In this document: positions 11,971-47,667 of the stretch, one piece after another | How positions within the stretch are numbered: the stretch's first letter is position 1 | Layout: each line of letters starts with the position of its first letter | NCBI GenBank assembly: GCA_019801415.1 | Contig: JAHVJD010000007.1 | Location: forward strand, 1-64,000 | Direction: 5' to 3' | Origin: Nocardioides marinus | GTDB lineage: Bacteria; Pseudomonadota; Alphaproteobacteria; Rhodobacterales; Rhodobacteraceae | Length of the DNA: 64,000 nt | Translations under genes and position numbers: made by a program | Notes under the pieces: generated by a model | Database searches by the model: none | What the model saw: only the letters and a program-made list of their open reading frames with translations | Told to the model about the DNA's origin: nothing

Positions 11971-12746
11971 TGCGTCTGTCCTGTCGATTCTTTCTTGGCG
12001 CGCCGGGCCAGAAAGGCCTCCTGGGCCGCCTGAGGCTCGCCACTGGCGTAGCATTGCATTTGCAGCCCGACGGCCGCGTCGCAGGCGGCGTCGAATCCGG
12101 GCTGGGTGAGGGCGCGGAAGCGCGCCTTCGACACGCGCATCGCGGTGCGGGGCAGGGCGGCCATGGCCTCGGCGCGGGCAAGCGCGGTCTCGAGCACGGC
12201 CTCGGGGGCGACCAGCTCGTTAATCAGCGTCAGGCGATGTGCCTCGGTGCCGGTGATCAGATCGCCTGTCAGCGACAGCTGCGTATTGACTGAAAGGCCG
12301 ACGTGCAGCGTCATGAGATAGGAGCCGACGATGCTTGCGAGACCGGCCTTGAGCTCAGGCTGACCGATGCGGATGCCGGCATGGCCGATGCGCAGATCGG
12401 CACAGAGCGCGACCTGAAACCCGGCGCCAGCCGCCACACCGTTCAGCGCCGCGATACAGCCCTTGTCGAGATCGCGCACCGCCTGGTACATCGTCCGCTG
12501 GTGCGACAGCCAGCGCGGCAGGTCCGCATAGGTGACGGCGCGACTCTCCTCGAGGTCCTGCCCGGCGCAGAAGGCGCGGTCGCCGGCCCCGGTCAGCACG
12601 ATGGCGCCGACCTGCGGATCGGCATTGGCGGCTCTGAGGGCGGCGATCAGCCCGTCGCGCAGCGCGCCGTTGACCGCGTTCATCCGCTCGGGGCGGCTCA
12701 GCGTGATGACCTGTACCGCGCCATGACGCTCACTCGCGACGCTCAT
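11967..12746 (-). CDS. Enoyl-CoA hydratase/isomerase family protein (2)
   Basis: A 259-aa crotonase-fold protein. Oxyanion-hole motifs are DRAFCAGQDLEES and LNGVAAGAGFQVALCADLR, and the catalytic loop is GQPELKAGLASIVGSYLM, where the first Glu (PEL) is kept and the second acidic position is not obvious. It differs clearly from the other crotonase in the operon, so the two probably catalyse separate steps. Both ends overlap neighbours by ATGA (acyl-CoA synthetase upstream, aldehyde dehydrogenase downstream), showing tight coupling. Confidence 0.85.
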   Translation of the reverse strand: MSVASERHGAVQVITLSRPERMNAVNGALRDGLIAALRAANADPQVGAIVLTGAGDRAFCAGQDLEESRAVTYADLPRWLSHQRTMYQAVRDLDKGCIAALNGVAAGAGFQVALCADLRIGHAGIRIGQPELKAGLASIVGSYLMTLHVGLSVNTQLSLTGDLITGTEAHRLTLINELVAPEAVLETALARAEAMAALPRTAMRVSKARFRALTQPGFDAACDAAVGLQMQCYASGEPQAAQEAFLARRAKKESTGQTQ

Positions 12747-14827: not shown

Positions 14828-14874
14828 GTTTCCTCCCCTTGTTGCTATCCCCAAGGTGACAGCATTGCTTGAAT

Positions 14875-14888
14875 TCCGGAATTTGGAT
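14875..14888 (-). promoter_or_regulatory. LysR-type box before the acyl-CoA synthetase gene
   Basis: On the minus strand the site reads ATCCAAATTCCGGA, matching the site in the lysR-oxidoreductase intergenic region at 13 of 14 positions. It contains T-N11-A with a TCC/GGA dyad, the LysR-family box pattern, and lies about 50 bp upstream of the acyl-CoA synthetase start in an AT-rich gap. Confidence 0.55.
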
Positions 14889-14909
14889 TTCGGAAATATG
14901 AGGTATTCG

Positions 14910-16619
14910 CTATTCGGATGAATCTGAGAAGTTTGTAGGGGCGCCGGTGGTCGCGCCCTTTGGCAGCGGGCCGACATTGCGCTGATAGAGCGCGAGCCAC
15001 CCTTTGGGCTCTGTCTGGCGCAGCTGCGGCGCTTCGGAAATGCGCCGGGCGATCACCTTCGGCGCCAGATCGAGATCAATGCGCCGTGCGCCGAGATCGA
15101 GCGAAATCCTATCGCCATCCCGCACTGCGGCGAGGGGGCCGAGGTCTGCGGCTTCCGGGCAGACCTGTCCGACAACCAGCCCGTGGTTCAACCCCGAGAG
15201 CTGGCCATCGGTCACCACGCAGACCTGTGAGGCTAAGCCCGATCCGCTGAGCGCCGCGACAAACCAGGAGGCGGAAGCGACGCCCGGGCCACCGCGCGCG
15301 CCAAGCCCGCGCAGGACGACAACGGAGCCGGGGGCGATCTCATTGCCAGTTAGGGCGTCGAGCGCCTCCTCCTGCGATGAGAACACCTGCGCCGGGCCGC
15401 AGAACCGCTCGGGTGCGCTGCCGCCCCCGGATTTCAGGATGGCGCCCTCAGGCGCAAGCGTACCCCTCAGTACCATGACCGACGGGCCGTGGCGGAACGG
15501 GCTGTCGAGGCTGCCCAGCGCTGGATGGGGCGGCGCGCTCGGGGCCGCCTGCATCTCGTCTGTCAGACATTGCCCGCTCGCGCCCAGGCAACTCAAGTCT
15601 AGCAGGGGCGCCAGCGCCTGCATCACCGCGCGGGTGCCTCCGGCTGTCTCGAGGTCTTCGATCCGATGCGGACCGCAGGGCTTTACCCCGGCCAGCTGCG
15701 GCACGCGCTCGCCCAGCTCCGAGATCATCTCGTAGAGGTCGAGTTCAAGCCCCGCCTCAGCCGCTACCGCAGCCAGATGGCGTAATACGTTGACCGATCC
15801 CGATACCGCCAATGACACCGCAAGCGCGTTACGGAATGCGCCGCGGCTCAGGATGGAGGAGGGCCGCAAATCCTCTGCGATCATTTCGACGATGCGGCGG
15901 CCGGCCCTCTGGGTGTTGTGCCGCAGCGCCTCGCTGGCCGCCGCCACGGGAGTGGTGCCTGGCAGGGCGAGGCCCAGCGCCTCGGCCATGATATGCATGC
16001 TGTTGGCCGTACCCATGCCTGCACAGACCCCGGGCCCGGTGATCGCGCGGTCGGTCATGGCGGTCAGCGTCGCCAGCGTGATCTTGCCGGACAGATATTC
16101 GCCGACGCCTTCAAAGACATCTTCGATGTCGAGTGCCGTACCGTTGATATGGCCGCTCCGTTGGTAGCCACAGGCGAGGATCAGCGCCGGAATGTCGAGC
16201 CGTGCCATCGCCATCATCTGCGCCGGTGCGGTTTTATCGCAGGAGGCGAGGCAAATCATGCCGTCGAGCTGCGCGCCCTCGACGCTGACCTCGATGTCAT
16301 GGGCGACGAGTTCCCGCGCCGGCATCAGGTAGCGCCCGCCGCGGGCAGCGCCGGTGACGAAATCCGAGGGTGCGGTGGTCCTGATCTCGAAGGGCACGCC
16401 GCCGGCGGCGCGGATCGCTGCCTTCAACTCAGCTACGATTCCGTCGAGATGTGCAAAGCAGATCGACAGCTCCGACGAGGTGTTGACGATCGCCACCTTA
16501 GGCTTTTCTAGGTCCTCTGGAGGGATGCCTAGGGCGCGCCATTGCGCCCGCCTAACTGCCCAGCGCGTGGTGCCCTGGTCGAAATTGCTGCGGAGTGTCT
16601 TTTTGGTAGTGTCAGTCAT
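14910..16619 (-). CDS. IlvD/Edd family dehydratase
   Basis: A 569-aa iron-sulfur dehydratase that removes water from a 2,3-dihydroxy acid or sugar acid. Likely cluster-binding cysteines are Cys54 (LSICFAHL), Cys127 (LASCDKTAP) and Cys199 (GVCAGMGTANSM); the C-terminal motif TDGQLSGLNHG, with PEAADLGPLAAV after it, is also present. It diverges from housekeeping dihydroxyacid dehydratase in several signature positions (SELSICF instead of the usual PCN form), so a catabolic sugar-acid dehydratase such as the arabinonate/xylonate type is more likely than a role in branched-chain amino acids. It begins 3 nt after the FAD oxidoreductase gene. Confidence 0.85.
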   Translation of the reverse strand: MTDTTKKTLRSNFDQGTTRWAVRRAQWRALGIPPEDLEKPKVAIVNTSSELSICFAHLDGIVAELKAAIRAAGGVPFEIRTTAPSDFVTGAARGGRYLMPARELVAHDIEVSVEGAQLDGMICLASCDKTAPAQMMAMARLDIPALILACGYQRSGHINGTALDIEDVFEGVGEYLSGKITLATLTAMTDRAITGPGVCAGMGTANSMHIMAEALGLALPGTTPVAAASEALRHNTQRAGRRIVEMIAEDLRPSSILSRGAFRNALAVSLAVSGSVNVLRHLAAVAAEAGLELDLYEMISELGERVPQLAGVKPCGPHRIEDLETAGGTRAVMQALAPLLDLSCLGASGQCLTDEMQAAPSAPPHPALGSLDSPFRHGPSVMVLRGTLAPEGAILKSGGGSAPERFCGPAQVFSSQEEALDALTGNEIAPGSVVVLRGLGARGGPGVASASWFVAALSGSGLASQVCVVTDGQLSGLNHGLVVGQVCPEAADLGPLAAVRDGDRISLDLGARRIDLDLAPKVIARRISEAPQLRQTEPKGWLALYQRNVGPLPKGATTGAPTNFSDSSE

Positions 16620-16622
16620 GTC

Positions 16623-17954
16623 TCAGCCCAAAAAAGCTTGGTCAGCGGTTAGCCGCGCCTGCAGTTTGTCGATCGCGATGTCGCCCACCGCGGCGATGCC
16701 GTCGTCGATGGCAATCGCTGCGGCGAGGCCCGCCGCTTGGCCCATCGCCATGCAGGTCGCGCCCACCCGTAGCGAGGCATGGGCATCATGCTCGGCCGAC
16801 ACGCAGCGCCCGGCGATCAGGAGGTTGCCGGGGCCGCGTTCCGGTACCAGGCAGCCGAACGGCACCTGGTAGTAGGAGCCGGGCTCGAGCCAGACCCAGC
16901 GGGTCTTGCGGTCGGCGCCGTGATCCTCCACCGGCCAGGCGGAACAGGCGATGGCGGTGTCGCTCTTGGCGCCGCGCAGCACTTCATCTGCGGTCAGCAC
17001 GTGCCGACCGCGGATACGGCGGCTTTCGCGAATCCCGGCCAGGCTGCCGGCGTCGGCGACGAAGGCCTTTTCGAACCCCGGCACGAAGCGGCGGAATGCG
17101 GACACGTAGAGCTTGACCTGACGACGCCCCTCGATCTCAGTGGCCGTCATCTCCTCGGCGGACAGCGGATCGGGCGAGCGGGCTCCATGTTCCAGCCGAG
17201 TGACATTGGCGTGCACCATCCCATCGCGCAGCGAGAACAGACCGCCAGCGGTCCGGGGCAGATCCATTCCTTCGGCGACCGCAAGCTCCAGCCGCGCGCG
17301 TAGCGCGGCGCGGTCCAGCGTGTCGAGGGTGCCAGGGGCCACCCCGCCGAACCGGAACATGGCCGAAGGCATCTGCAGGTGCTCAAGATCGCACTCCCAG
17401 GGAACTCCGGCCAGCGCCGCGACTTCGCCATCGCCGGTGCAGTCGATAATCTGTCGGCAGCGCACCGCGAAAAGCTGGGATCGAAAGCCGAGGACAAGGC
17501 CGGTGATGCGGTTCTCTTTCTGGTCCAAGTCAATGCAGCGGGTGTGCATCAAGATCTCGACACCGGCTTCATGTATCATTTCGTCAAGTACGCAGCGCAT
17601 CGCAAAGGGGTCGTAGATCGTCGTCGCGGTTTGCAGCCAGCACTCCGGACCGCGTGCTTCACCACGTGCCATGAGCCTGTTTACCAGGTCCTCGATCAGA
17701 CCGCCGACGATGCGCCGGGGTGTCCCATTCTCAAGCACGTATTCGCCGCAAATGGAGCCGACCGTCACCGCAGTCATGGTTCCGCCCAGAAATCCCTGGG
17801 CTTCGACGAGCAGAACGCGTGCTCCTGCGCGGCCTGCAGCGATTGCTGCTCCGACGCCCGCAAGCCCGCCGCCGACGACCACAATATCCACCTCACGCCA
17901 AACGGGAACTTCGCGCGCAGGTAGGACGATTTCATCCATGTGAATTTTTGACAT
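16623..17954 (-). CDS. FAD-dependent oxidoreductase
   Basis: A 443-aa flavoprotein of the FAD-dependent oxidoreductase family, with the dinucleotide-binding motif VVVGGGLAGVGAA (residues 26-38), VLLVEAQGFLGGTM after it, a DCTGDGEVAALAG segment, and a C-terminal FAD-closing region (GNLLIAGRCVSAEHDAHAS). It is the first gene of the catabolic operon, so it may oxidise the imported substrate. The start given is Met1; Met6 is an alternative, and neither has a strong ribosome site. The promoter lies in the 81-bp region shared with the divergent LysR gene. Confidence 0.85.
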   Translation of the reverse strand: MSKIHMDEIVLPAREVPVWREVDIVVVGGGLAGVGAAIAAGRAGARVLLVEAQGFLGGTMTAVTVGSICGEYVLENGTPRRIVGGLIEDLVNRLMARGEARGPECWLQTATTIYDPFAMRCVLDEMIHEAGVEILMHTRCIDLDQKENRITGLVLGFRSQLFAVRCRQIIDCTGDGEVAALAGVPWECDLEHLQMPSAMFRFGGVAPGTLDTLDRAALRARLELAVAEGMDLPRTAGGLFSLRDGMVHANVTRLEHGARSPDPLSAEEMTATEIEGRRQVKLYVSAFRRFVPGFEKAFVADAGSLAGIRESRRIRGRHVLTADEVLRGAKSDTAIACSAWPVEDHGADRKTRWVWLEPGSYYQVPFGCLVPERGPGNLLIAGRCVSAEHDAHASLRVGATCMAMGQAAGLAAAIAIDDGIAAVGDIAIDKLQARLTADQAFLG

Positions 17955-18012
17955 GCAGTCAGGTTAGAAGTCCGGTAAGGTATCAGTAAGTCGGTCAGAG
18001 TAGATATCAGGT

Positions 18013-18026
18013 ATCCAAATTTCGGA
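18013..18026 (+). promoter_or_regulatory. LysR-type box in the divergent intergenic region
   Basis: ATCCAAATTTCGGA, a T-N11-A site with TCC/GGA half-sites, centred about 16 bp before the LysR start and about 65 bp before the oxidoreductase start. The same sequence with one change occurs before the acyl-CoA synthetase gene, which suggests specific binding by the LysR protein encoded here. Confidence 0.6.
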
Positions 18027-18035
18027 TGACTAAGG

Positions 18036-18929
18036 ATGAATGATCTCCGCGCCCTGCGCGTTTTTTCCGAAATCTGCCGACTGGGCAGCTTCTCGAAAGC
18101 CGCGGTTGCTCTGGGCATGGCACAGCCGAGCATCAGCCGAATTGTTCGTGAACTGGAAGAAAACGTCGGATCGCCGCTGTTCCTGCGAACCGGACGGGGG
18201 GTCGTACCCAGCGAAGTTGGCGAGGTAGCATTCGAACGAGCAGAACGCTTACTGCTTGAGGCAGATCAGATGATGGTCGACCTACGGAATGCTTCAGACA
18301 ACCCATCAGGCAAAGTAATCGTCGGCTTGTTGCCTTCGGTCGCCCAGCATGTGGCTGCGGATCTGACCAAACATGTGGCAAATCACGCACCTGAGATTTT
18401 TCTGTCCTTTCGTGTCGGATCCAGCGATCAGGTTGATCGCTGGGTGTCTGAAGGCCGTGTCGATATCGGGCTGCTTGGTTTCTACAAGGGATCCGACGAG
18501 GGGGGGGGAACGGTACTGTTTCGCTCCGAGCTACTTCTCATCGGGTCTGCGCGGCATCGCTGTTTGCCCGAAGTGGTAAACATGCAGCAGCTGTCAGAGT
18601 ATCCGTTGGTGATCGCGCCTGAGCCCAACGGACTGAGATTGCTTTTGCGCGATGCGGCCAGATCAGTCGGCAGCACCCTCAATGTAGTGGTGGAAGCCGA
18701 AGCCATCGAGCTGCAGAAGACTATCATCCAGGAGTGCCTGTACTTCTCGGTGGTCGCTCGAACCGCAGTCGAGGATGAACTGCGTTCAGGTATTTTTCAT
18801 TCTGCGCGCATAGAAAGCCCACAACTCCTTCGTTCAGTCGTACTTACGACCACCCAGCAGCGTCCCACCAGCCGGGCCGCACGCTTAGTTACTGATGTTC
18901 TTATCGAAAAGTTTCGGCGGTCCCGGTAG
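18036..18929 (+). CDS. LysR-family regulator of the catabolic operon
   Basis: A 297-aa LysR-type transcription factor. The N-terminal helix-turn-helix spans about residues 1-60 (FSKAAVALGMAQPSISRIVRELE), followed by the linker helix and a periplasmic-binding-protein-like effector domain from about residue 90. It is divergent from the ten-gene operon, and LysR boxes lie in the intergenic region and within the operon, so it most likely controls that pathway in response to an intermediate. The AAGG before the start touches the ATG, so the ribosome site is poor; no better start is seen. Confidence 0.88.
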   Translation: MNDLRALRVFSEICRLGSFSKAAVALGMAQPSISRIVRELEENVGSPLFLRTGRGVVPSEVGEVAFERAERLLLEADQMMVDLRNASDNPSGKVIVGLLPSVAQHVAADLTKHVANHAPEIFLSFRVGSSDQVDRWVSEGRVDIGLLGFYKGSDEGGGTVLFRSELLLIGSARHRCLPEVVNMQQLSEYPLVIAPEPNGLRLLLRDAARSVGSTLNVVVEAEAIELQKTIIQECLYFSVVARTAVEDELRSGIFHSARIESPQLLRSVVLTTTQQRPTSRAARLVTDVLIEKFRRSR

Positions 18930-18982
18930 CCAAGGTGATTCACAAATTTGCAGTTCGGCTTCCACGAGAGCGTAGACGGAAG

Positions 18983-20039
18983 CGGTTTTGTTGCCAAAAC
19001 AACGGCTGTGAATTCACTATGTGAATACAGTATGGTAGCTGAAGCAGCATAAGAAGTTGGGTCCCTAGGTATTACAAAACCAGGAACTGGCCTTCGTACA
19101 ACACAGCACTAAGGCAGCGCGGATCACTTTCGGTTTGAATTGATCCTGAGAAGGTCTGGGTGCCACCGCAGAGCGACAAGCGGCGCCGACAACAGTAATT
19201 CAGCGACGCTGCGACGCAGACCTGCCTGACCCTGTAGGTGTTGTTCGGCAGGCCGTTGCGACAGGCGACCGGGTTTGTCGAAAGTCTGCTGCGGCTCGTT
19301 GGACGGGGTTGGGTCGTGCCCGCTTTCAGCTCAGTTCGCCGCCGTCAGAAGATGCCGAACGTGAGCCTGCCGTATCGCGGTGGAACCGGCCCGTTAAACT
19401 TTTTTATCGATAGCACCGCCATTAAGACCGAGGGAAAAAGGGAAGTAGAGCGCCTGCAAACATGGTGGCCCCAAACGCCGGGTTTGACGTAGAAATCCTA
19501 TTCGGATCGATGAAGTCGACGCTAGAAGTTCGGGCGGGCGAGGTCACCACCAGCATTGTCGGTTCAGCGCCGATGCTGTCGGTACTGCTCGCCTAATTTT
19601 CGTTTGATCAAGGCATCGGATCAGTGACCGCCAAGGGAGTTTTTGGCACAAGCAAATGTCGCCACTCGATTGCTGTCCGTGGTGCTGGCACCGTCATTCC
19701 AGCTGGCAACGGCGCCTAGCTCTGGAAACCAATTAGCGCCGGGGAAACCGCCCGGAAAGAAACGGTTAACGCGTCGCGATATATAGTCCGCGCTCTGGGT
19801 CGGCGATTGAGCGGATACCAACGGAGAAGCCGTGTTGAGAGAAAGAAAGACAGTGTTAAACTTCTTTGGCAGTCACTCATGGCACGCGACTTCGACGGAT
19901 AAGTCGCGGCAATCCAAATCCGCGTCACCGCGATAAATCGCTACACCGTTCCAGGCACACCAATCAAAGAGCCGGTAGGACAATTCCGCCCAGAGAAAGC
20001 GGAAGCCTGCCCATCAACATTTTTGCGCAACAAAGCCGC
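18983..20039 (+). mobile_element. Decayed IS5-family insertion sequence, full length
   Basis: An element of about 1,057 bp bounded by near-matching terminal inverted repeats: left GCGGTTTTGTTGCCAAAA and right end, reversed, GCGGCTTTGTTGCGCAAAA (one mismatch and one missing base). Between them lies a transposase reading that matches the IS5-family pattern along its whole length but is broken by stops and frameshifts. The size fits the family. No clear target duplication is left. It sits between the LysR gene and a broken regulator next to the defence operon. Confidence 0.8.
19067..19980 (+). pseudogene. IS5-family transposase remnant
   Basis: Read in three frames, this stretch gives the familiar IS5-type order: TRNWPSYNTALRQRGSLSV, then LRQATGFVESLLRLVG, YRGGTGPLNFFIDSTAIK, ACKHGGPKRRV, TLEVRAGEVTTSIVGSAPML, QGIGSVTAKGVFGTSKC, RLSGYQRRSRVERK, VKLLWQSLMARDFDG and INRYTVPGTPIKEPVG. 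Several stop codons (for example after GSLSV, after RRRQQ, after QTCLTL and after GNGA) and at least two frameshifts interrupt it, so no functional transposase can be made. The DDE residues DST and the DFDG-region are still readable. This is an old, immobile copy. Confidence 0.8.
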
Positions 20040-20156
20040 TTTGAATGTGGTCCGAAGTAAATTGAAACGCGCGTTATCATCCTAGCCGCAAACTTCTGCA
20101 CGGCCGATCCAACTGATGGCGCGATGGGCGCGCAGCCCCATGGTTTCGGGGAGGCA

Positions 20157-20438
20157 TTAGCGTGCGGTACGTGCCGCAATTTCCAGCGCCTCGATCGCCG
20201 TTTCCTGTCGGGGCTGCAGTCGATCTGGCAACGGAGCGTCCAACCGCCAATATCGCCGTCTTTCTGCATCGTCTGTGGCCGAGGCATTCGCGAAAGTTGC
20301 TTCGAGAGCCTCGGTCGTCCGTTTACCGGTGCGGTGCGACACATCGAACTCGGCGCAAATGTCCTTGAGGCTGACGCCATCTCGGCGAAAAGCCGACATC
20401 TGGGCAAGGCGAAGCAAAACCTGCGCTTTTGTAAAAGA
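20157..20438 (-). pseudogene. Truncated HTH regulator, probably WYL-type
   Basis: The minus strand encodes a helix-turn-helix region (SFTKAQVLLRLAQMSAFRRD, then GVSLKDICAEFDVSHRTGKR and DDAERRRYWRL) typical of the N-terminal wing of WYL-domain regulators, then stops after about 90 codons without any WYL domain. No good start codon or ribosome site is present in frame. It is divergent from the nuclease-helicase gene, the position often held by WYL regulators of defence operons. The decayed IS5 element lies 118 bp beyond its stop, so the gene was probably broken during rearrangement there. Confidence 0.6.
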
Positions 20439-20546
20439 TATTTGATCTCCATGCCAGAAATTGACACCCTCGCACGGTATTGATGACCTTGCGGTCTGTC
20501 GAGGCGATTCCCTCGGAAGTTGATTTTTTAAGGTATTGGAGCAGCC

Positions 20547-23500
20547 ATGAGGGACCTAGCCGGTCACATTTTGCTGTCAGCCACAGATCTCATGCGCTTC
20601 ACAGGCTGCGCACATGCGACCACCCTTGATCTGGCATATATGCGCGGAACGGGCCCGGAGCCGGGCGACGACACCGAGGACGCAGCGCTTTTGCAAAAGC
20701 AGGGCGATGCGCATGAGGCGGCGCACCTTGCACATCTCAAAGAGGCCGGGCGCACGGTCATGGAAATCGAGCGCGGCAAACTTGGCGAAAACGCCGGAGC
20801 CACGCGCGCGGCGCTCGCCGTTGGTCCGGATGTGGTGTCTCAGGGCGCGTTTCTGTCGGGGAACTGGGGCGGCTGGTCCGACTTTCTGGAGCGTGTTGAG
20901 GTACCCTCAGCGCTCGGACCGTTCAGCTACGAGGTGGCCGACACCAAGCTGAAACGTCGGGCCGATCCCAAACATGTGCTTCAGCTGGTTCTGTATTCCG
21001 ATCTGTTGGCGGAAATTCAGGGGGTGGAGCCCGAGTTCGCGCATGTCGAATTGGGAGACGGCACCCGCGCTACGCTGCGCCTAGCAGACTACTCTTCCTA
21101 TGCTCGGATGGCGCGACAACGGTTGGAAGCCTTCGTCGCCGATCCGCAGCCAACACGCCCGGTGCCATGTGCGGATTGCGGTCTGTGCCGCTGGGTCGAA
21201 CATTGCAACAGCGTCTGGCACGCCGAAGACAGCTTGTTCAATGTCGCCAACATCAGTCGTGGCCAGGTGAAAAAGCTAGAAGCAGCGGGTGTTCACACAT
21301 TGGAGGCTCTCTCGACGCTGGATCACCCGGTGCGCGGAATGGCCGAAAACACAAAGGCCCGATTGGTTACTCAGGCCCGCCTGCAACAGGCCCGCAAAAA
21401 CGGGGAGCCAGATTTCGAACTGCGGGCACTGGAGCCTGGCAAAGGTTTCGACCTCTTGCCGGAACCTCAGACGGGCGACCTGTTCTACGACATCGAAGGC
21501 GATCCTCACTATGAAGGCGGCCTCGAATATCTGCACGGCATCTGGTTCGACGGGCAGTTCCAGGCGTTTTGGGCCCATGACCACGGCGCAGAAGCGCGGG
21601 CATTGTCGGACTTGCTGGCGTTCGTTCGCGCGCGGATTTCGCAATACCCCACTGCGCGCATTTATCACTACGCGCCATACGAGATCACCGCGCTGAAACG
21701 CCTGACCACGAAATATGGGATCGGTGAAGCCTTCCTAGACCGGCTGCTCCGGGAACGGCGCTTCGTCGACTTGTTCGCCGTGGTCCGCGGCGGGCTGATC
21801 GGATCAGAGCCGAACTATTCCATCAAATCGATGGAGGCATTTTACGACCGCAAGCGGGACGGTGAGGTCAAGACAGCGGGTGGCTCGGTCGTGGCCTATG
21901 AGCGTTGGCGTGAAACGCAAGACCAGCAGATTCTGGACGAGATCGAGGATTACAACCGCGTCGATTGCATCTCGACCGAGGAATTGCGCGACTGGCTGGT
22001 AGGCATCCGACCTGCCGGCCCTTGGCCAAAACTTGCCCCGGATGCAGGCGATAAAGAAGTCGACGAGGACGCCGACACGCAAGCTCTGCGTAACCTGCTA
22101 GCAACATCAGGCTTGCCCGAGGCGCGGCAGGATATGCTGTTCAACCTCGGCGTCTTTCACAACCGCGAGTTAAAGCCGGCGCAATGGGCCGTATTCGATA
22201 GCACCGCAAAGGACGAGGATGATCTGCTCGACGATCTCGATGCACTTGGCGGGCTTGAGGCAGCGGGTCCTGTCGAACCCGTCAAGCGATCCTTCGCGCG
22301 CCGATACACCTATCCTGAACAGGAAATGAAACTGCGGAGCGGCAAGAAGGCGACGGTTCCCGTATTCGGCAGTCCCCCGACAACGGTCGGCATCGAATCC
22401 ATGGATCGGCGGGCACGTGAGATCACGGTAAAAGCAGGTCCCGGCAAAGCCGACCTTCTTGGGGACCAGCTGACACTACATCCGGACTGGCCGATCCAAA
22501 CGGGCGTCATTGCCAATGCTCTGCGTGATGTGATCGCCGATCAGTGCGGTGCGCGCCGGTACTCGGCGGTGGATGACCTGCTGTCGTGCGCCGCACCGCG
22601 ACTGCGCTCTGGCTCAAGAGGCGATCTTCTAGGCGGGGCGGACCCTGTAGCGGGCGCTATTGCCGTGGTGAATGACATGGATGGAACGGTCCTGCCGATT
22701 CAGGGCCCACCTGGTACCGGCAAGACCTATGTGAGCGCACGCGCAATCCTGTCTTTGGTGCGCAAGGGCCATCGCGTCGGCGTCGCATCCAACAGCCACG
22801 AGGCTATCAGGAATGTGCTGATGGGCTGTCTTTCAGCTTTGGAAGACGAAGACCTGCCGATCAATCTTGATCTCGTCCACAAGGTTTCCAGCATCGAGGA
22901 TGGTTATCCCGAAGGCTGCCCTGTACATCGTACGACTGACAACGCAGAAGCCGCGAAAACCGGGCATGTCGTGGGCGGCACCGCGTGGTTCTTCTCGCGC
23001 GACGAAAATGTTCAGGCCTTTGATTGGCTGTTCGTGGACGAGGCAGGTCAGGTCGGACTTGCCAACATGGCTGCCATGGGTCGTGCCGCGCGAAACATCG
23101 TCCTTGTGGGCGACCCACGCCAGTTGCCGCAGGTCATTCAGGGAGCGCATCCCGAGCCTGCGAACCTGTCGTGCCTGGATTGGATGCTCGGTGTGCATGC
23201 GACGGTTCCAGCCGACCGGGGCATTTTCCTTCCCACTTCACGGCGCATGCACCCTGACGTCTGTCGGTTTGTCTCAGAACAGGTGTATGAAGGCCGACTA
23301 ACCAGCCATCCTGATACGGCTAACCAGTGCGTGACAGGCATGGCGCTCCCCGAAGCCGGAGCTTTCTGGGTGCCGATCCCGCATGAGGGTAATGCCCAGA
23401 TCGCACAGGAAGAAGCCGCCGCAATTGGAGAAACCGTCACTGAGTTACTAAGCGGAAGCTGGACAGAGAAGGACGGCAGCACGCGGCCGATGCGCGAAAC

Positions 23501-23822
23501 GGACATTATTGTCGTCGCTCCGTACAACGCTCAGGTAAACGCGCTCCGTGATGCCCTTCCGTTGGCTGTTCGTGTCGGAAACGTGGACAAGTTCCAGGGG
23601 CAAGAGGCACCGGTCTGCCTGGTTTCCATGACCGCATCTTCCGCCGAAGAAACCTCGCGCGGGATGGAGTTTCTGTTTTCGCTGAACCGCATCAATGTCG
23701 CGGTCTCACGCGCCAAGGGACTCGCATTGGTGTTTGGAGCGCCACGATTGCGTGAGGCGAAGTGCAATTCTGTTGAGCAAATGCAGCTGGTCAATACGCT
23801 CTGCGCATTGTCGGCATTTTGA
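20547..23822 (+). CDS. TM0106-type RecB nuclease / DEDD exonuclease / SF1 helicase fusion
   Basis: A 1,091-aa three-part nucleic-acid enzyme. Residues about 1-230 form a RecB-like PD-(D/E)xK nuclease: YEVADTKLKRR, LQLVLYSDLL, then a four-cysteine cluster CADCGLCRWVEHC (208-220) that could hold iron-sulfur. Residues about 310-490 form an RNase-H-like DEDD exonuclease (FYDIEGD; YHYAPYEITALK; DYNRVDCISTEEL). Residues about 690-1090 form a superfamily 1 helicase with Walker A GPPGTGKT (720-727), Walker B VDEAGQ (830-835), GDPRQLPQ, VDKFQGQE and NVAVSRAKG. The start has GGAG 6 nt upstream. McrB follows 18 nt after the stop, so the three genes form an operon. A DNA- or RNA-degrading effector acting with McrBC is the likely role; this pairing is inferred from position. 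Confidence 0.85.
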   Translation: MRDLAGHILLSATDLMRFTGCAHATTLDLAYMRGTGPEPGDDTEDAALLQKQGDAHEAAHLAHLKEAGRTVMEIERGKLGENAGATRAALAVGPDVVSQGAFLSGNWGGWSDFLERVEVPSALGPFSYEVADTKLKRRADPKHVLQLVLYSDLLAEIQGVEPEFAHVELGDGTRATLRLADYSSYARMARQRLEAFVADPQPTRPVPCADCGLCRWVEHCNSVWHAEDSLFNVANISRGQVKKLEAAGVHTLEALSTLDHPVRGMAENTKARLVTQARLQQARKNGEPDFELRALEPGKGFDLLPEPQTGDLFYDIEGDPHYEGGLEYLHGIWFDGQFQAFWAHDHGAEARALSDLLAFVRARISQYPTARIYHYAPYEITALKRLTTKYGIGEAFLDRLLRERRFVDLFAVVRGGLIGSEPNYSIKSMEAFYDRKRDGEVKTAGGSVVAYERWRETQDQQILDEIEDYNRVDCISTEELRDWLVGIRPAGPWPKLAPDAGDKEVDEDADTQALRNLLATSGLPEARQDMLFNLGVFHNRELKPAQWAVFDSTAKDEDDLLDDLDALGGLEAAGPVEPVKRSFARRYTYPEQEMKLRSGKKATVPVFGSPPTTVGIESMDRRAREITVKAGPGKADLLGDQLTLHPDWPIQTGVIANALRDVIADQCGARRYSAVDDLLSCAAPRLRSGSRGDLLGGADPVAGAIAVVNDMDGTVLPIQGPPGTGKTYVSARAILSLVRKGHRVGVASNSHEAIRNVLMGCLSALEDEDLPINLDLVHKVSSIEDGYPEGCPVHRTTDNAEAAKTGHVVGGTAWFFSRDENVQAFDWLFVDEAGQVGLANMAAMGRAARNIVLVGDPRQLPQVIQGAHPEPANLSCLDWMLGVHATVPADRGIFLPTSRRMHPDVCRFVSEQVYEGRLTSHPDTANQCVTGMALPEAGAFWVPIPHEGNAQIAQEEAAAIGETVTELLSGSWTEKDGSTRPMRETDIIVVAPYNAQVNALRDALPLAVRVGNVDKFQGQEAPVCLVSMTASSAEETSRGMEFLFSLNRINVAVSRAKGLALVFGAPRLREAKCNSVEQMQLVNTLCALSAF

Positions 23823-23840
23823 TATAAGGAATTATAAAGT

Positions 23841-26585
23841 ATGGATAATATGGCAGGCGAAAGTGGCTGGCTTGTCATCCGTAAAGAGCAGGCGGAAGCC
23901 TACGGAAAGAAATTGTCCGAGGCGGAATTCTTGGTCAGGGCTGGCTCAACCGCCATGCGCGAAGGCACCCCAAAGGTGAAACGCAATCGTCCAGAGCGTG
24001 ATCGTTTGGTTCAGCAAGGGATTTTGATTCCAGATGTCAATGCCGCGCTGTTCCGCTTTTCTCAGGACCATGTTTTTTCAAGCAAGAGTACAGCAGCGGG
24101 CGTAATCATTGACGGAAACAGCAACGGCGACCATTGGAAGGAAGCTGGGGGCTCGTCGTCTCTGGCTGCTTTGGTCGCGCAGGTAACGAGGCGCGAAATC
24201 GAATTGGCGATGGATGAGTGCGATAGGAAGGGCTTGAGTGCCTTTCTTGCCGAACGTGATTTCGGTAAACCTCGTGTATGGGCATTGCGCAACAACCACC
24301 GCTATCCTGCAAAGGCGACTGTTGCTGTTGCAATTCAGTATTTGCCTGACGGTCCTAGATTCTCCGCCAAGACATTTTTCAACGGGTTCGGCGAAAAGGA
24401 GGCCTTCGCGCGTCTCGAAGAACTTGCCTATGAGCTGGACCGCGATGGCGAAACGCTTAGCCGCACAAGCATCGAAGCCGCGATGGACGCATACGACAGC
24501 TACCGTACGACAGGTGCACATGGCGAAATCTTTAATGCCTTTGGGGAACCGCGTGATTATTGGGTGCGCTCCACGCGTGAGCGCGAAAATCGTGTCTATC
24601 CAACGAAGCCGCTGATTGGGTTCATTCTCAACAAGGCAGAGCTAAACGGCGGTTGGGGACAGAAGTCGGATGCGGCTGCGCGTCTTCACAACGCCGGTTT
24701 CATCATAGTTGACCAAAAAGATCAGCCCATCGATCGTCCTGAACGCTACAAACACCTGCTCGAAGGTGCCAACCGGATCAGGCTATGCGCTCTGAACTAT
24801 TTCATCGAACCGGCCCGGGAAAAGGCGGCTAGGGAGGTCTCCATCCGCGCGGGCGAGTTGGCCGCAGCGATGGGGTTGACTGAACGATCACCCAATATCT
24901 GCCAGGCCCTTGGCGGTGAAAAGTTCCAGAAACTTGCACATGTACCACCGCCCACGAGCACCGAACCGAATCCAAGCAGCTCGACCGTTTTCACATATAC
25001 GCTCAATTCCCAACCGGAGGCGGACACCGTGACCGACACAAAAAAAGCGCCATCGCCATCCGCCGTAAATTTGATCCTCTATGGCCCGCCGGGCACGGGT
25101 AAGACGTATCAGACGGCATGGGAAGCCGTCCGGCTGTGCTTGGGTGACGAAGCTACTGCTGCGCTAAATGGACAAAATGGCCGAGCAGAACTCATGAGCA
25201 CGTACCGCAGCCTCGTAAGCGAGGGGCGCATCGAATTCGTGACTTTCCACCAGTCTATGTCCTACGAGGAGTTCGTCGAGGGGCTGCGACCGACCACGGA
25301 TCAGTCCGAGGACAGCTCGGCGGGCACCGGGTTCCGGCTGGAGCCGGTCCCCGGGATCTTTAGACGCATCTCGGAGCGTGCGGAGAAGGGCGTGCCGAGA
25401 GTACCGCGAGGGAACGTCGTTTCCCTCGATGGGCGCCAGGTCTTCAAGATGTCGATCGCGCGCGCCAACGTGGCGGCAGAGGACTACCTGTTCGAGGAAG
25501 CCATCTCCGAGGGGCACACGCTCCTCGGCTGGGAGGACATCGACTTCTCCGACGACAGGTTTTCCGATGTCGAGGAGATACTGGAGGCTTGTCGTACCCA
25601 AGGTGAGCGCGAAGGCGAGGTTACTCTGCAGTCGGGTCAGGTGAGCCAAGTGGACGTGTTCCGTAACCAGTTGGACGTCGGAGACATCATCGTTGTCACC
25701 AAGGGCAACCGACTGTTCCGGGCCATCGGCGAGGTCACCGGCGAGTACGAATACCGGCAGCGGGACAACCGCAAGTACTGCCACCGACGGGCCGTGCGGT
25801 GGCTCTGGGTCGACCGGGATGGGGTTCCTGCCTCCGAAATCTACGATGGCAACTTCACCATGAGGTCGATCTATGCACTCAATCGGGCCCGCCTCGATAA
25901 CGTTGCCCTCGAAAGCTATATGAACAGCGGCGGCGAACCGGTGCAGCGCGAGGCAAGACCGTATGTTCTCATCATCGACGAGATCAATCGGGCGAACATC
26001 TCCAAGGTCTTCGGCGAACTGATCACGCTTCTCGAGCCCGACAAGCGGCTTGGGGCGGACAACGAGATCCGCCTCACGCTTCCATATTCCAAGAAGTCAT
26101 TCGGGGTGCCTCAAAACCTGCATGTCATAGGTACGATGAACACGGCCGATCGCTCCATCGCGCTCTTGGATACAGCGCTACGCCGCCGGTTCTCATTCAA
26201 GGAACTGATGCCCGACCCTTCAGTTCTGTCTGACAACGTTGAGGGGGTCGATCTGCAAAAGCTGCTGTCTACGATCAACGAGCGGATCGAGTATCTGTTC
26301 GACCGGGAGCATCAAGTGGGGCACGCCTACTTCACAGGCTGCCAGACGCGGTCGGATATCGAGAGCGTCATGCGAGACAAGGTGATCCCGCTTCTGGCTG
26401 AGTATTTCTATGAGGACTGGTCCAAGGTCGCAGCTGTTCTTGGCGACTCTGCTCACGGTCCCGCCCGTTTCCTCGATGCCAATCGAGTCGCTGTACCCAG
26501 AGGCATGACTGAAGACGACTTTACTAGCGAAAAGCTGCGGTGGACGGTCAAAGACAAATTCGACTTCTCAGAGTTTGCGGTCTGA
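23841..26585 (+). CDS. mcrB: McrB-family restriction GTPase with DUF4357, head repeats and EVE-like insert
   Basis: A 914-aa AAA+ protein of the McrB type, the motor and recognition part of type IV restriction of modified DNA. Residues about 25-100 match DUF4357 (LVRAGSTAMREG; HVFSSKSTAAGVIIDGNSNG). Residues about 135-300 hold two copies of a module with the core RYPAKATVAVAI / VYPTKPLIGFIL, like N-terminal head domains of McrA/McrB-type enzymes. Walker A GPPGTGKT is at 415-422, Walker B LIIDEIN at 709-714 and the McrB signature MNTADRS at 766-772. The unusually long Walker A-B distance is due to an insert at about 525-690 that looks EVE-like (DIIVVTKGNRLFRAIGEVTGEY), a fold known to bind modified bases. 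TGATG links it to mcrC. Confidence 0.88.
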   Translation: MDNMAGESGWLVIRKEQAEAYGKKLSEAEFLVRAGSTAMREGTPKVKRNRPERDRLVQQGILIPDVNAALFRFSQDHVFSSKSTAAGVIIDGNSNGDHWKEAGGSSSLAALVAQVTRREIELAMDECDRKGLSAFLAERDFGKPRVWALRNNHRYPAKATVAVAIQYLPDGPRFSAKTFFNGFGEKEAFARLEELAYELDRDGETLSRTSIEAAMDAYDSYRTTGAHGEIFNAFGEPRDYWVRSTRERENRVYPTKPLIGFILNKAELNGGWGQKSDAAARLHNAGFIIVDQKDQPIDRPERYKHLLEGANRIRLCALNYFIEPAREKAAREVSIRAGELAAAMGLTERSPNICQALGGEKFQKLAHVPPPTSTEPNPSSSTVFTYTLNSQPEADTVTDTKKAPSPSAVNLILYGPPGTGKTYQTAWEAVRLCLGDEATAALNGQNGRAELMSTYRSLVSEGRIEFVTFHQSMSYEEFVEGLRPTTDQSEDSSAGTGFRLEPVPGIFRRISERAEKGVPRVPRGNVVSLDGRQVFKMSIARANVAAEDYLFEEAISEGHTLLGWEDIDFSDDRFSDVEEILEACRTQGEREGEVTLQSGQVSQVDVFRNQLDVGDIIVVTKGNRLFRAIGEVTGEYEYRQRDNRKYCHRRAVRWLWVDRDGVPASEIYDGNFTMRSIYALNRARLDNVALESYMNSGGEPVQREARPYVLIIDEINRANISKVFGELITLLEPDKRLGADNEIRLTLPYSKKSFGVPQNLHVIGTMNTADRSIALLDTALRRRFSFKELMPDPSVLSDNVEGVDLQKLLSTINERIEYLFDREHQVGHAYFTGCQTRSDIESVMRDKVIPLLAEYFYEDWSKVAAVLGDSAHGPARFLDANRVAVPRGMTEDDFTSEKLRWTVKDKFDFSEFAV

Positions 26586-27895
26586 TGCCGACCTTCACCC
26601 TGCGCGAATGGGAAACGTTGCGGCACGGCGAAGGGGAGGGCTGCATTCCCGACCACTTTGCCGAGCGTCTCGCGGCGCTGGCCAAGAAATCTGCCTTTGG
26701 CGGCAGCGGCGGCGGAGTGCTTGAGGATCGGCGCCATGAACTGCGAGCGCGTGGTGTCGTCGGCGTCTTGGCGACCGAGGAGTGCAGTCTAGAGATCCTT
26801 CCTAAGATCGATGTCGAGGTGCAGGGTGGTAAAGCAATGCAAAACGCTGCCATTCGCAAACGCCTTGTTCACATGCTTGCTGTCACGCTCGACCTAAAGA
26901 TCGAGACAGGCCAAATCACAGAGCTTGACTGGCAGCGCGAAACGCTCCTCGAAATTCTCATCCGAATTTTCAGCAGCAAGCTGACCGATGCTGTTCGTCG
27001 CGGCATGCCTAGACGATACATGGTCCGAGAGGATGACCTTGCGGCTTTGCGCGGGACGCTCGACCTACCACGTCAATTCACACGGCACGCCGCAAATCCT
27101 TCACGGCTTGCCTGCAAGTTCGATGAGCTCTCAGAGGACATCGCTCTGAACCGCATCATGAAAGCCACGGTCGCATATCTCTTCAGAATGTCCCGTAGCC
27201 CGTCCAACCAACAGCGCTTGCGCGAATTGGCTTTCGTCTACGCTGATATTGCCGACGTCGCTGTGTCTGCGCTGAAATGGGACGAGGTCGTTATCGACCG
27301 GACTAACCGGGCTTGGCAGGAATTGTTCGGGATGGCGCAACTTTTTCTGCGTAGTCGCTACCAAACGACGAGCGCCGGGGCGGGGCGAGGTACTGCGCTT
27401 CTCTTCGAGATGAATACACTTTTCGAGGAATATGTCGGCCGACTGATCACACGCGCCTTGGCACGCACGGAGTATCGGGTCTCTCTACAGGGCGGGAGAC
27501 TGTTCTGCCTAACATCTCTCGATGATAAACGCGCTGTGTTCCAGACGAAACCCGATATCCTGATCTGGCGTGCAGGGCAGGTTGTCCATGTGATCGACAC
27601 GAAGTGGAAGCGGATTTCTTCCCGCATTGATGATCGAAAACAAGGAGTTTCCCAAAGCGACGTCTATCAGATGATGGCTTATGCACAGCTATATCGCGCG
27701 CCTCGGCTTACGCTTCTTTATCCACATCATCCAGGGCTGGGTGCAACAGAGCTCGTTCAGGCGAGACACCGAATAACCGGTCAAACGACAACATTGGAGA
27801 TAGCCAGCATTGATGTAGAGAATGGTGGAAACATAATTGATCGGCTTCAAAGTCTGCTTCTCTCCAGCGAGTTGACAGGAGAACTGTCAGTTTAA
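26585..27895 (+). CDS. mcrC: McrC-family nuclease subunit
   Basis: A 436-aa McrC homologue, the endonuclease partner of McrB. The start MPTFTLREWETL overlaps the mcrB stop (TGATG). The N-terminal region binds the McrB ring in known systems; the C-terminal PD-(D/E)xK site is visible as Asp324 in KPDILIWR and Asp338-Thr-Lys340 in VIDTKWKRI, after the conserved FEMNTLFEEYVGRL segment. All catalytic positions are present, so it should be active. It is the last gene of the defence-type operon. Confidence 0.88.
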   Translation: MPTFTLREWETLRHGEGEGCIPDHFAERLAALAKKSAFGGSGGGVLEDRRHELRARGVVGVLATEECSLEILPKIDVEVQGGKAMQNAAIRKRLVHMLAVTLDLKIETGQITELDWQRETLLEILIRIFSSKLTDAVRRGMPRRYMVREDDLAALRGTLDLPRQFTRHAANPSRLACKFDELSEDIALNRIMKATVAYLFRMSRSPSNQQRLRELAFVYADIADVAVSALKWDEVVIDRTNRAWQELFGMAQLFLRSRYQTTSAGAGRGTALLFEMNTLFEEYVGRLITRALARTEYRVSLQGGRLFCLTSLDDKRAVFQTKPDILIWRAGQVVHVIDTKWKRISSRIDDRKQGVSQSDVYQMMAYAQLYRAPRLTLLYPHHPGLGATELVQARHRITGQTTTLEIASIDVENGGNIIDRLQSLLLSSELTGELSV

Positions 27896-28305
27896 TGGGG
27901 CCGCCGATCATCTTCTAAGGCACGCAAGATGGAGGAGGTTCGACGGGTGTCCCATTCCCTCCGCCACTTGCCCCCCGCGAAGATTTGATCCCGAACCTTG
28001 GCTGTCGGTTTCCTGTTCTTTTTACAGGGTATTGGCTGAGCTTTCGCATGGGGGAGAGTGGCTGAAGGCGGTCTCTGAGAGACGAAATTCCCAGATCCTG
28101 ATTGCTTCAACGGTGACGGTTCCTGTCGGCGCGCTACGAAGACCGCGTATTCGCGAAAACCCACATTCGCGGCGTGGGCGGCGAATGATACGTCGTGGGT
28201 TGAACCCAGTGCACCGAATGCCGGGCCTGTGGTGGTCGGCATTCGGAATTTTATCGCTGCGGGCAGCCGCTTCTAGCTGTATCACCGCCCGCCGCCAGAG
28301 GGGCG
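27896..28305. other. Gene-free boundary region after mcrC
   Basis: About 410 bp without a supported gene. Near the start, 27937-27966 ends in CCCTCCGCCA, like the 3' end of a serine tRNA, and 28055-28085 resembles part of the 5' half of such a tRNA, but the arms do not fold into a tRNA. It may be a scar at the edge of the defence insertion. Minus-strand frames here have no start site or known protein. Confidence 0.4.
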
Positions 28306-46815: not shown

Positions 46816-47595
46816 TCACACGCGCAGCGCGCGAGGGGAGCCTAGGCTGCGGCGCAGCAGGTAGATGTCCATGATCCAGCCGTGCTCGGCCCGGGCCGTC
46901 GCGCGGGTGCGGATGATTTCATCGCGCATTTCGCTCAGGGGGCCGGACAGGGAAATCTGGTTTTCCATTCCCGCATAGGCGGTCCAGTAGATCTCCACCC
47001 CCTGCGGCGCGATGGACTGGAAGGAACATTCGCCGTCCAGCATGATCACCAGTGTATCGGCGCTGTCCGGCCAGCCTTGTTCGCGCAGTTGGCGCCCGGT
47101 GGTGATGGTGAAAGGGGCACCGATCTCGTTGAGAGGGATCGCATGGGCCGCGGTCAGGGCCTGGATCGAGGTAATGCCCGGGATCACCGTCAGTTTGAGG
47201 TCAGCGCGCTGTTGCAGCCGGTCGGCAATGCGCATGGTGCTGTCGTAGAGCGAAGGATCGCCCCAGACGAGGAAACCCGCCTTGCCGCCGTCGGGCAGAT
47301 GCGTGCTGATGTTCTGCCACCAGATCTCGGCAATGGCATCGTGCCAATCGTCGACCCGTTTGCGGTAGTCGCGGATGGTTTCGTCCCGCACCGGCAGCGA
47401 GAATTCGACGATCCGTGGGCCGTTGCCCTTGATTGCCAGGTGGCAGATTTCGCGCCGCAGCCCGGCCAGATCATCCTTGCCGACCCCTTTGTTGGGGATC
47501 AGGATCAGGTCCTGCGCGTTCAGCGCGTCGATTGCCTGCAGGGTCATGTGCTGCGGGTTTCCGGTGCCGATACCGATCAGGCTGAGTTCGATCAT
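46816..47595 (-). CDS. cobF: Precorrin-6A synthase (deacetylating), CobF
   Basis: A 259-aa SAM methyltransferase of aerobic cobalamin synthesis that methylates C1 and removes the acetyl group of precorrin-5. It starts LSLIGIGTGNPQHMTLQAID; the SAM site region appears in FLVWGDPSLYDSTMR and VIPGITSIQALTA. The start ATG has AAAGG 6 nt upstream; an alternative Met lies five codons earlier. It stands apart from the main cob operon, downstream of the cobalt-uptake genes, and converges with the luxI-type gene. Confidence 0.88.
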   Translation of the reverse strand: MIELSLIGIGTGNPQHMTLQAIDALNAQDLILIPNKGVGKDDLAGLRREICHLAIKGNGPRIVEFSLPVRDETIRDYRKRVDDWHDAIAEIWWQNISTHLPDGGKAGFLVWGDPSLYDSTMRIADRLQQRADLKLTVIPGITSIQALTAAHAIPLNEIGAPFTITTGRQLREQGWPDSADTLVIMLDGECSFQSIAPQGVEIYWTAYAGMENQISLSGPLSEMRDEIIRTRATARAEHGWIMDIYLLRRSLGSPRALRV

Positions 47596-47667
47596 GGCGG
47601 GGCCTTTCATGCGTGGACACGCCCCCTATGGAGCCGTGCCGCTGGTCTTGCAAGCGCGGGGTGACGG

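Follow-up and report, generated by a model that had tools for sequence, protein, structure and literature searches.

The window analysed here, a stretch of 64,000 nucleotides, carries mcrB and mcrC genes preceded on the same strand by a gene for a nuclease-exonuclease-helicase fusion (NH), and this arrangement raises the question of what such an enzyme does in front of a restriction system. In the preliminary description NH was considered a dedicated part of McrBC. The comparison with related loci leads to another answer: NH probably stands as the constant element at the head of a modular defence operon with exchangeable payloads, in which it would act as a generic DNA-processing partner. Those elements of this reading that can be drawn from sequence (intact enzyme parts, tight operons and repeated payload exchange) have been demonstrated at that level.

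The cluster is a real operon whose three ORFs are open from end to end, with no gene beyond NH, mcrB and mcrC (Table 1). The layout reported earlier agrees with the ORF coordinates: 18 nt separate the NH stop codon (23820-23822) from the mcrB ATG (23841), and the TGA of mcrB and the ATG of mcrC overlap by one base (TGATG). Related to this, among 49 loci typed by script the next gene of at least 130 aa lies on the NH strand in 46, a candidate ATG or GTG start is found at -25 to +60 of the NH stop in 34, and candidate starts overlap or abut that stop in 24, the start nearest the stop being chosen, which biases these counts toward small distances. The spacing is that of operons beyond chance.

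Table 1. Features of the NH-mcrBC locus (nucleotide positions in the window; residue numbers of NH where marked aa)
Feature	Position	Strand	Remarks
Left flank common with L060	11323..20162		8.8 kb, 94.8% DNA identity
WYL-family regulator remnant, divergent	20160..20441	-	N-terminal HTH part only, about 94 of 327 aa
Imperfect inverted repeat, WYL-NH intergenic	20452..20466		Conserved in an alignment of 19 chosen loci
NH (gene 1)	20547..23822	+	1,091 aa; catalytic residues checked are kept
Predicted Fe-S RecB/Cas4-type nuclease of NH	aa ~11-225	+	Profile matches, structure model
DEDD exonuclease of NH (RNase_H_2)	aa 312-485	+	Pfam
UPF1/DNA2-type SF1 helicase of NH	aa ~526-1091	+	AAA_11/AAA_12 matches reach aa 1065
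Payload exchange junction	23806		Homology at the DNA level with the four closest NH loci stops at 23806 in three, 23810 in one
mcrB	23841..26585	+	914 aa, canonical NxxD type
DUF4357 domain, McrB N terminus	23997..24152	+	aa 53-104; Pfam E 5e-8, 33.1 bits (cut-off 38.4)
Putative YTH/EVE-like domain in McrB GTPase	25440..25829	+	aa 534-663, between Walker A and Walker B
mcrC	26585..27895	+	436 aa counted from ATG; PF10117, PD-(D/E)xK motif present
Non-coding motif just past payload	27930..27969	+	Conserved behind different payloads; right-hand boundary

A divergent WYL regulator, whole in the Leisingera daeponensis locus L060 and in others, is the usual companion of NH. The intact divergent WYL gene of the BrxR/CapW type is absent from the window, where the expected start position lacks a start codon and some 775 bp have been lost in comparison with L060; because the regulator is reduced to a remnant, repression of the operon has probably ceased. 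The inverted repeat between the two genes is a candidate operator.

NH matches the model TIGR03491 ("TM0106 family RecB-like putative nuclease") over aa 11-484 with 253.2 bits, well above the cut-off of 97.45, which places it by profile in the TM0106 family; the model itself already takes in the exonuclease part. Together with the RNase_H_2 and AAA_11/AAA_12 matches, this bears out the fusion of RecB nuclease, DEDD exonuclease and SF1 helicase noticed previously. The fusion is not peculiar to the window: relatives in the sample have the same build, and among the best 80 species-genome relatives (577 confirmed in all) a match from the nuclease to the helicase end was obtained in 77. The four-cysteine cluster described at first does exist, but it is better placed at C21, C211, C214 and C220, each found in 55 of 56 alignment rows (in the sole exception, L142, all four are lost together), whereas C208 is kept in only 43 of the 56. 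These cysteines suggest that NH carries an Fe-S cluster. In the literature searched, with most subscription papers and supplements outside its coverage, no function was found for the TM0106 family and no mention of TIGR03491 or "RecB-like putative nuclease"; the term TM0106 appeared there in two papers only, both on corrosion.

The AlphaFold model of NH is good (pLDDT 90), and its best Foldseek match is eukaryotic Dna2, in an alignment that spans the full length; the VIA-align rows mainly cover model residues 378-1091. Both enzymes show an Fe-S RecB-like nuclease, the Fe-S cluster of NH being a predicted one, followed by a UPF1-like SF1 helicase, the four-cysteine RecB-type nuclease of NH being that expected of Dna2-like nuclease-helicases. 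However, NH adds a DEDD exonuclease between these parts, and it is bacterial, lies in operons and is also present on plasmids. In eukaryotes Dna2 resects DNA ends and processes flaps, and in view of this role and of the shared build it could be argued that NH serves repair or self-protection, mending or clearing the damage that the adjoining nuclease causes to the host. This is very improbable, since Tiamat and PsyrTA, for instance, are not known to cut DNA, and the distribution of NH is sporadic: any match was obtained in 40 of the 292 genomes of the window's order, and matches lie on 149 plasmid records, 58 of which hold at least 80% of NH.

The payload in the window consists, by sequence, of type IV genes, for which GTP-dependent cleavage of modified DNA is predicted. 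The GTPase motifs of McrB (GPPGTGKT, VLIIDEINR and MNTAD; MNTADRS in the window) vary little or not at all over 16 rows and include Walker A, Walker B and the NxxD element; profile matches were obtained with 6ut3/6ut5 and 6hz4, whereas the narrower NCBI models remain below their cut-offs (PRK11331, 109 vs 637 bits; PRK09736, 120 vs 338 bits). McrC matches PF10117 (DUF2357) with 251 bits and contains KPD...IDTKWK, a PD-(D/E)xK motif recovered by pattern in 24 of 25 NH-linked McrCs, window included. These features and the mcrB-mcrC overlap are shared with the type IV systems of E. coli and Thermococcus gammatolerans, from which the window differs in having NH as the first gene of the operon. Besides, E. 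coli McrB has DUF3578, whereas the window McrB has an N-terminal DUF4357 domain and an insert in its GTPase. McrB as a whole is poorly modelled by AlphaFold (pLDDT 61), particularly in residues 1-204, but the insert reaches pLDDT 68-92; Foldseek matches of the whole model to YTHDF2 (E 4e-4) and 1zce (E 0.03), reported without an aligned range, may be assigned to this insert, which would then have a YTH/EVE-like fold of modified-base readers. The insert alone gave nothing useful against PDB sequences.

Membership in CoCoNuT was rejected on the GTPase motif and the helicase build. According to the main text of PMC11090510, types II and III consist of CnuB-CnuC-CnuH-CnuE, the McrB GTPase motif is NxD, and CnuH has SmpB-like/RTL domains and a coiled-coil insert, CnuE being separate. 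In contrast, the window McrB has NTAD (NxxD), NH has RecB and DEDD nucleases in place of SmpB-like/RTL domains, and no CnuE-like further gene is present in the operon. That main text contains no mention of TM0106, RecB or Tiamat.

Counting how often NH adjoins McrB was proposed beforehand as a test of a dedicated role. The wider set comprised 51 loci, window included, with an NH at least 60% identical and at least 600 bp visible downstream; of 577 confirmed relatives the sample covers the best 80, together with six of the 40 plasmid matches listed, and the payload shares hold for this sample. McrBC is the commonest payload (22 loci), followed by Tiamat (TmtA, 14) and SbcCD-like genes (6, two of them also with TmtA); SNF2 helicase, PsyrTA, Pbe and PDC-M26A occur in one locus each, and five loci have no recognised partner. 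These classes were assigned by homology to defence families, those of PDC-M26A, SNF2 and SbcCD-like genes being few or weakly characterised. Repeated genomes were dropped (L068, L070, L074, L078, L065, L031, L140, L099, L141, L001), loci with less than 600 bp after NH were set aside (L072, L073, L088, L089 and L103, the start of TmtA being visible in L103 and L089), and broken or cut NH copies were left untyped (L017/L050, L021-L023, L033, L143, L144, L146). L064, L089 and L091 do not enter the spacing count (49), the tree of NH (with 53 rows) or any of the Mantel tests (21, 13 and 38); in the census L064 was typed by hand as McrBC and L091 as having no recognised payload.

The possibility that NH belongs to a McrBC variant as a dedicated third subunit, processing McrBC-cut DNA, finds some points in its favour in these data: the order has 16 NH copies of nearly full length (at least 58% identity), 11 of which are followed by mcrBC, the genes are tightly spaced, and NH and McrBC are partly co-inherited. 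Nevertheless, McrBC is not the payload in 29 of the 51 loci, 24 of which have another recognised one in the same position. Conversely, the 292 genomes gave 46 McrC matches, of which 11 adjoin a full-length NH and two adjoin NH fragments; the other 33 have no NH match beside them, some of these lying near contig ends, and among 18 of the NH-less loci inspected, the 11 with at least 6 kb visible upstream of mcrB all lack NH in that stretch. These 11 include L199 and L202, with McrC 70-72% identical to that of the window. The neighbour census and the trees rule out a McrBC-specific subunit as the general case, and a dedicated role is improbable; what stands of the preliminary description is the operon, McrBC as the commonest partner and DNA processing as the likeliest task.

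The closest relatives of the window locus point in the same direction. Its four closest NHs (91-95%) have partners other than McrBC in the stretch visible, and in the sample the McrBC closest to that of the window adjoins an NH of 75% identity. L060 is the same locus with Tiamat in place of McrBC; its NH has 94% DNA identity, and homology ends 13 bp ahead of the NH stop codon. No TmtA-like GHKL/sacsin-type protein is encoded in the window operon. As judged from these alignments, payloads have been exchanged repeatedly at the NH stop-codon junction, once at an orthologous chromosomal locus. On the NH tree the McrBC state changes 13 times, which is near random, and all payload classes change 17 times, against 21.4 after shuffling (2 of 200 shuffles as low). 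On the McrC tree NH linkage is clustered (6 changes against 9.6 shuffled, 2 of 500 as low), and NH and McrC distances are correlated (Mantel, r 0.46, p 0.0001). Full independence is contradicted by this partial co-inheritance; from the distance correlation and the clustering of McrC linkage and payload classes it follows that some NH-payload pairs travel together. With respect to the TM0106 family, it is the payload exchange that is new; no published description of a payload-swapping NH operon was found in literature covering few subscription papers and no supplements.

The modular operon would work as follows. NH normally has the divergent WYL regulator at its side and is followed on its strand by one of several unrelated payloads, which is McrBC in the window and, in other loci, Tiamat, an SbcCD-like pair, PsyrTA, Pbe or an SNF2 helicase. 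The payload would recognise or cut the invading DNA; in the window McrB would do the recognising, by means of its putative YTH/EVE-like domain and further specificity domains, with McrC acting as the nuclease. NH would load on the resulting ends or strands, unwind and digest them, and a local cut would be turned into loss of the invader genome. NH thus most likely unwinds and degrades DNA cut or marked by the payload, although payload and NH could simply be co-expressed.

Co-expression is the core of another explanation, in which NH is a complete defence system and its neighbours are separate systems stacked behind a WYL-controlled promoter, with common expression and separate mechanisms. McrBC, Tiamat and PsyrTA are each known to stand as systems of their own, Tiamat as a single gene without NH, and the TmtA, PsyrT and PsyrA models match the neighbours. 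Besides, many NH copies of less than about 58% identity lie next to no recognised payload, so that the presence of the enzyme does not require one, and in L119 NH is followed by a CBASS-type cyclase and a TIR protein. On the other hand, only the five loci without a recognised payload in the close clade would fit such independence, and starts that overlap or abut the NH stop are closer than stacking requires. A DUF4357-type domain is moreover a free gene of 109-192 aa between NH and TmtA in L054, L062, L082, L083 and L118, but in the window and in L036, L037 and L075 it forms one protein with McrB (related domains, blastp 44-57%). Stacking is therefore unlikely. It may tentatively be suggested that NH is a general "executioner" hub onto which unrelated sensors physically dock (McrBC, Tiamat, PsyrTA, Pbe, SbcCD-like and possibly CBASS), sometimes via the DUF4357-type adaptor; if so, systems thought to be self-complete would share one exchangeable DNA-destroying partner.

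It has also been considered that NH watches aberrant ends and degrades all DNA when the payload fails or is blocked. Damage sensing of this kind is described for the Hachiman nuclease-helicase in PMC12278908, NH has a helicase-nuclease build, and McrBC can kill its own host (PMC2614495). The three window proteins gave no HamA (DUF1837 nuclease) or HamB (helicase) match at the thresholds used, which counts against membership in Hachiman and not against a like mechanism. Evidence for toxicity is lacking, and the operon has stayed open with its WYL gene reduced to a remnant, a point against a strongly toxic product; such a damage sensor is improbable.

As to the significance of the modular operon, McrBC, Tiamat and PsyrTA are usually treated as closed systems, and if NH precedes a class of them, clones of the named genes alone may miss a working part. 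Pairs of these three systems are co-mentioned in the literature (e.g. PMC12278908). No mechanism of Tiamat was found in the literature searched; on the same condition, a direct handle on it would come from the question of what its GHKL-type protein can pass to a Dna2-like enzyme in common with McrBC and with a toxin pair of RecQ type. Repeated exchange at one junction also offers a natural experiment in modular immunity.

With regard to the motif at the right-hand border, a tRNA or tmRNA was discarded with ARAGORN, which gave no such gene next to the motif in checks of 25 and 12 loci; unrelated tRNAs occur elsewhere in L118, L077 and L189. No Rfam RNA reached the gathering score in 7 and 6 loci, and a permissive Rfam scan of 231 bases gave two chance-level matches only. 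The motif is not specific to defence: the 28 ORFs scanned, out of 30 that lie close to copies of it in other loci, include three McrC and two matches to the PADLOC model mad1, the rest being mixed.

The operon consists of a gene for a 1,091-aa nuclease-helicase (NH: Fe-S RecB-type nuclease, DEDD exonuclease and SF1 helicase) followed by mcrB and mcrC. The three genes lie where the preliminary description had placed them and their reading frames are uninterrupted; mcrB starts 18 nt after NH, and the mcrC start codon shares one base with the end of the mcrB stop codon, which is the overlap that had been reported. The TIGR03491 model (RecB-like putative nuclease family, TM0106) matches aa 11-484 of NH with 253 bits, RNase_H_2 lies inside this region (aa 312-485), and the C-terminal part is recognised by AAA_11/AAA_12 and IGHMBP2-type helicase models. 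The G+C content is 0.55-0.61 over 18-28 kb, below that of 9-18 kb (0.63-0.72) and 29-37 kb (0.65-0.67). An NH relative on a viral contig (L142) lacks all four presumed Fe-S cysteines and keeps the catalytic residues that were checked.

Positions of the operon and of neighbouring features in the window
Feature	Position	Strand	Remark
Serine recombinase	89-1246	-	Resolvase and Recombinase domains; left contig end
Toprim/DUF7146 primase-type gene	2697-3569	-	left contig end
WYL remnant	20160-20441	-	HTH part only; about 775 bp missing compared with L060
NH	20547-23822		nuclease-exonuclease-helicase
mcrB	23841-26585
mcrC	26585-27895
Conserved non-coding motif, about 38 nt	27930-27969	payload strand	3' of the last payload gene

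The McrB protein contains Walker A, Walker B and MNTADRS, the latter assigning it to the NxxD type, and its profile search retrieves the McrB structures of T. gammatolerans and E. coli. Its GTPase is interrupted by an insert at about aa 534-663. Foldseek, run with the whole predicted model, retrieves YTH domains (7z8w, E 4e-4; 7ywb, a complex with N6-methyladenine, E 9e-4), and 1zce is a weaker match (E 0.03). These matches are tabulated without aligned range, and the strands of the insert suggest that it is the part matched; the model as a whole is poor (pLDDT 61). GTPase inserts and EVE-type fusions have already been described for McrB (PMC11090510). None of the PADLOC models matches the window McrC.

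Relatives were collected from 292 whole genomes of the order, plasmids (six fetched among 40 matches listed), species genomes (the best 80 of 577 confirmed relatives) and a few viral contigs. The census retains NHs of at least 60% identity and, once repeated genomes are removed, comprises 56 NHs, 51 of them with at least 600 bp after the gene; the defence genes directly following NH on the same strand (the payload) are named by PADLOC profile matches, and the remainder by blastp to scanned representatives. In these 51 loci, drawn for the species genomes from the best 80 of 577 relatives, the payload is McrBC in 22, the Tiamat protein TmtA in 14, SbcCD-like genes with TmtA in two and without it in four (two of which continue with a DruE-like gene and one of which has the SbcD-like gene alone), and SNF2 helicase, PsyrTA, Pbe and PDC-M26A in one each, the last 206 bp after NH. 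PADLOC scores reach 1,804 bits for TmtA and are 996 for PsyrT, 531 for PsyrA, 779 for PbeA, 897 for PbeC, 283 for the DruE-like and 340 for the BrxH/DrmD-like proteins. Within the order, 40 of the 292 genomes have some NH match, many to the helicase part only, and 15 carry the 16 near-full-length copies (at least 58% identity): 11 precede mcrBC, two precede TmtA-like genes, two are without recognised partner, and one is followed after 397 bp by a metallophosphoesterase gene. The expected adjacency holds in that McrBC is the commonest partner in both counts, but NH is also followed by other payloads. Below about 58% identity many copies are without recognised partner; a possible further payload class is seen in L119 (51%), where NH precedes genes for a TIR protein and for a CBASS-type cyclase (L119:13664-16129).

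The proposal that NH is a dedicated part of a McrBC variant is weakened from both sides. The order contains 46 matches to PF10117 (McrC) in 43 of its 292 genomes; 11 adjoin a full-length NH, two adjoin NH fragments (G044, G257) and 33 have no NH match alongside. Eighteen of these 33 were fetched, seven being short or ended by the contig, and NH is upstream of mcrB in none of the 11 with at least 6 kb upstream in view. Two NH-less loci with more than 10 kb upstream in view (L199, L202) encode a McrC 70-72% identical to that of the window. Conversely, the NHs closest to the window's among the matches listed precede TmtA (L060, 95%; L062, 93%; L054, 91%) or an SNF2 helicase (L061, 93%).

DNA homology to these four loci is continuous through NH and ends at 23806 (three loci) or 23810 (one), before the NH stop codon at 23820. 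L060, from Leisingera daeponensis, lies at the corresponding chromosomal site: its identity to the window is 94.8% over 11323-20162 and 94.0% over NH, the payloads beyond NH differ, and homology resumes rightward at 46850-47596, 49780-51822 and 51942-52537, the window having about 19 kb extra between payload and resumed flank. On the other hand, the closest NH-linked McrBC (L042) has a McrB 87% and a McrC 82% identical to those of the window, beside an NH of 75%; at the DNA level NH is 70% identical, and mcrB from codon 210 on with mcrC 81%. The payload has thus been exchanged behind NH.

On the NH tree (53 rows, three outgroups), 13 changes are needed between McrBC and not-McrBC, 10 of them forced; shuffling gives a mean of 15.5, with 73 of 500 shuffles at or below the observed value. 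Eight payload classes need 17 changes (21.4 when shuffled; 2 of 200 at or below). Over 21 McrBC-linked loci, NH and McrC distances correlate with r 0.46 and McrB and McrC distances with 0.68; for NH and WYL (the divergent regulator normally beside NH) the value is 0.65, above that of NH and McrC. NH linkage is clustered on the McrC tree (six changes, shuffled 9.6). This clustering and the NH-McrC correlation speak against fully free exchange.

The next gene of at least 130 aa is on the same strand as NH in 46 of 49 script-typed loci. When the start closest to the NH stop is chosen for every next gene, it falls within -25 to +60 of the stop in 34 of 49, overlapping or abutting in 24. The main rival explanation is that independent systems are stacked behind one promoter; this closeness argues against it, though not decisively, as does the small number of close relatives that lack a payload (nothing recognised after NH in five of the 51 loci). 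The sequences establish the composition and intactness of the genes, their operon structure and the payload exchange; as a functional partner, NH would digest DNA already cut or marked by the payload. This role would best suit a Dna2-like enzyme that combines helicase and nuclease with an additional exonuclease, because the partners have no common fold, yet all could expose DNA ends or strands.

The domains themselves are already known. The nearest published case found of an SF1 helicase with McrBC is CoCoNuT types II/III, which motif and build rule out for the window operon; the CoCoNuT census may include NH-McrBC loci without mention in its main text. No paper found in a search of main texts, few of them from subscription journals, connects proteins of the TM0106 type with McrBC, Tiamat or PsyrTA. 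NH is therefore regarded as a new, promiscuous partner of the nuclease-helicase kind, represented in the window by its McrBC form.

Small genes accompany some payloads. In the window, L036, L037 and L075 a DUF4357-type domain forms part of McrB; in L054, L062, L082, L083 and L118 such a domain has a small gene of its own, placed between NH and TmtA. Other small genes of 134-168 aa, likewise located between NH and payload (L093:10304-10720, L066:13272-13685, also L096, L079, L087, L094) form two blastp groups besides DUF4357 and are possible adaptors.

In the window, as in 13 further distinct loci (L035, L036, L041, L054, L060-L063, L067, L071, L087, L094, L106), the motif of about 38 nt lies 5-51 nt past the last payload gene, behind McrC, TmtA and SNF2 genes equally. 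Its 22 matches are spread over 21 of the 115 sequences (among them 20 of 53 close loci), every one on the payload strand, seven being more distant (L034, L037, L066, L076, L086 twice, L105). With up to two mismatches it occurs in 57 of the 292 genomes, two to four times in some, and its reversed control is absent among the matches listed for these genomes. A terminator-like hairpin follows it in many of the listed loci. It resembles the attachment site or boundary of a mobile element; where present, the exchanged part is bracketed by NH on one side and the motif on the other. No match to tRNA, tmRNA or Rfam RNAs was obtained at the checked loci, and the motif has no general tie to defence genes.

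A divergent WYL-domain gene lies within four genes of NH in 38 of 53 close loci, and proteins of this kind are repressors of defence loci (BrxR, PMC9122601). It is whole in relatives; the window shows a natural loss of the presumed repressor beside an operon still open throughout. When 19 chosen loci are aligned, the region between WYL and NH keeps the block TG.CAGA.ATTGACACC, with L113 as the most divergent. A 221-aa gene beside WYL (L055:6231-6896) is annotated as a HEPN-domain protein; genes of similar length (221-223 aa) are found there in L037, L063, L075, L079, L083, L086, L087, L094 and L118, and all of these may be constant components of the operon. The recombinase and primase-type genes at the left contig end, separated from the defence operon by transporter and catabolic genes, suggest a mobile region extending to the contig start.
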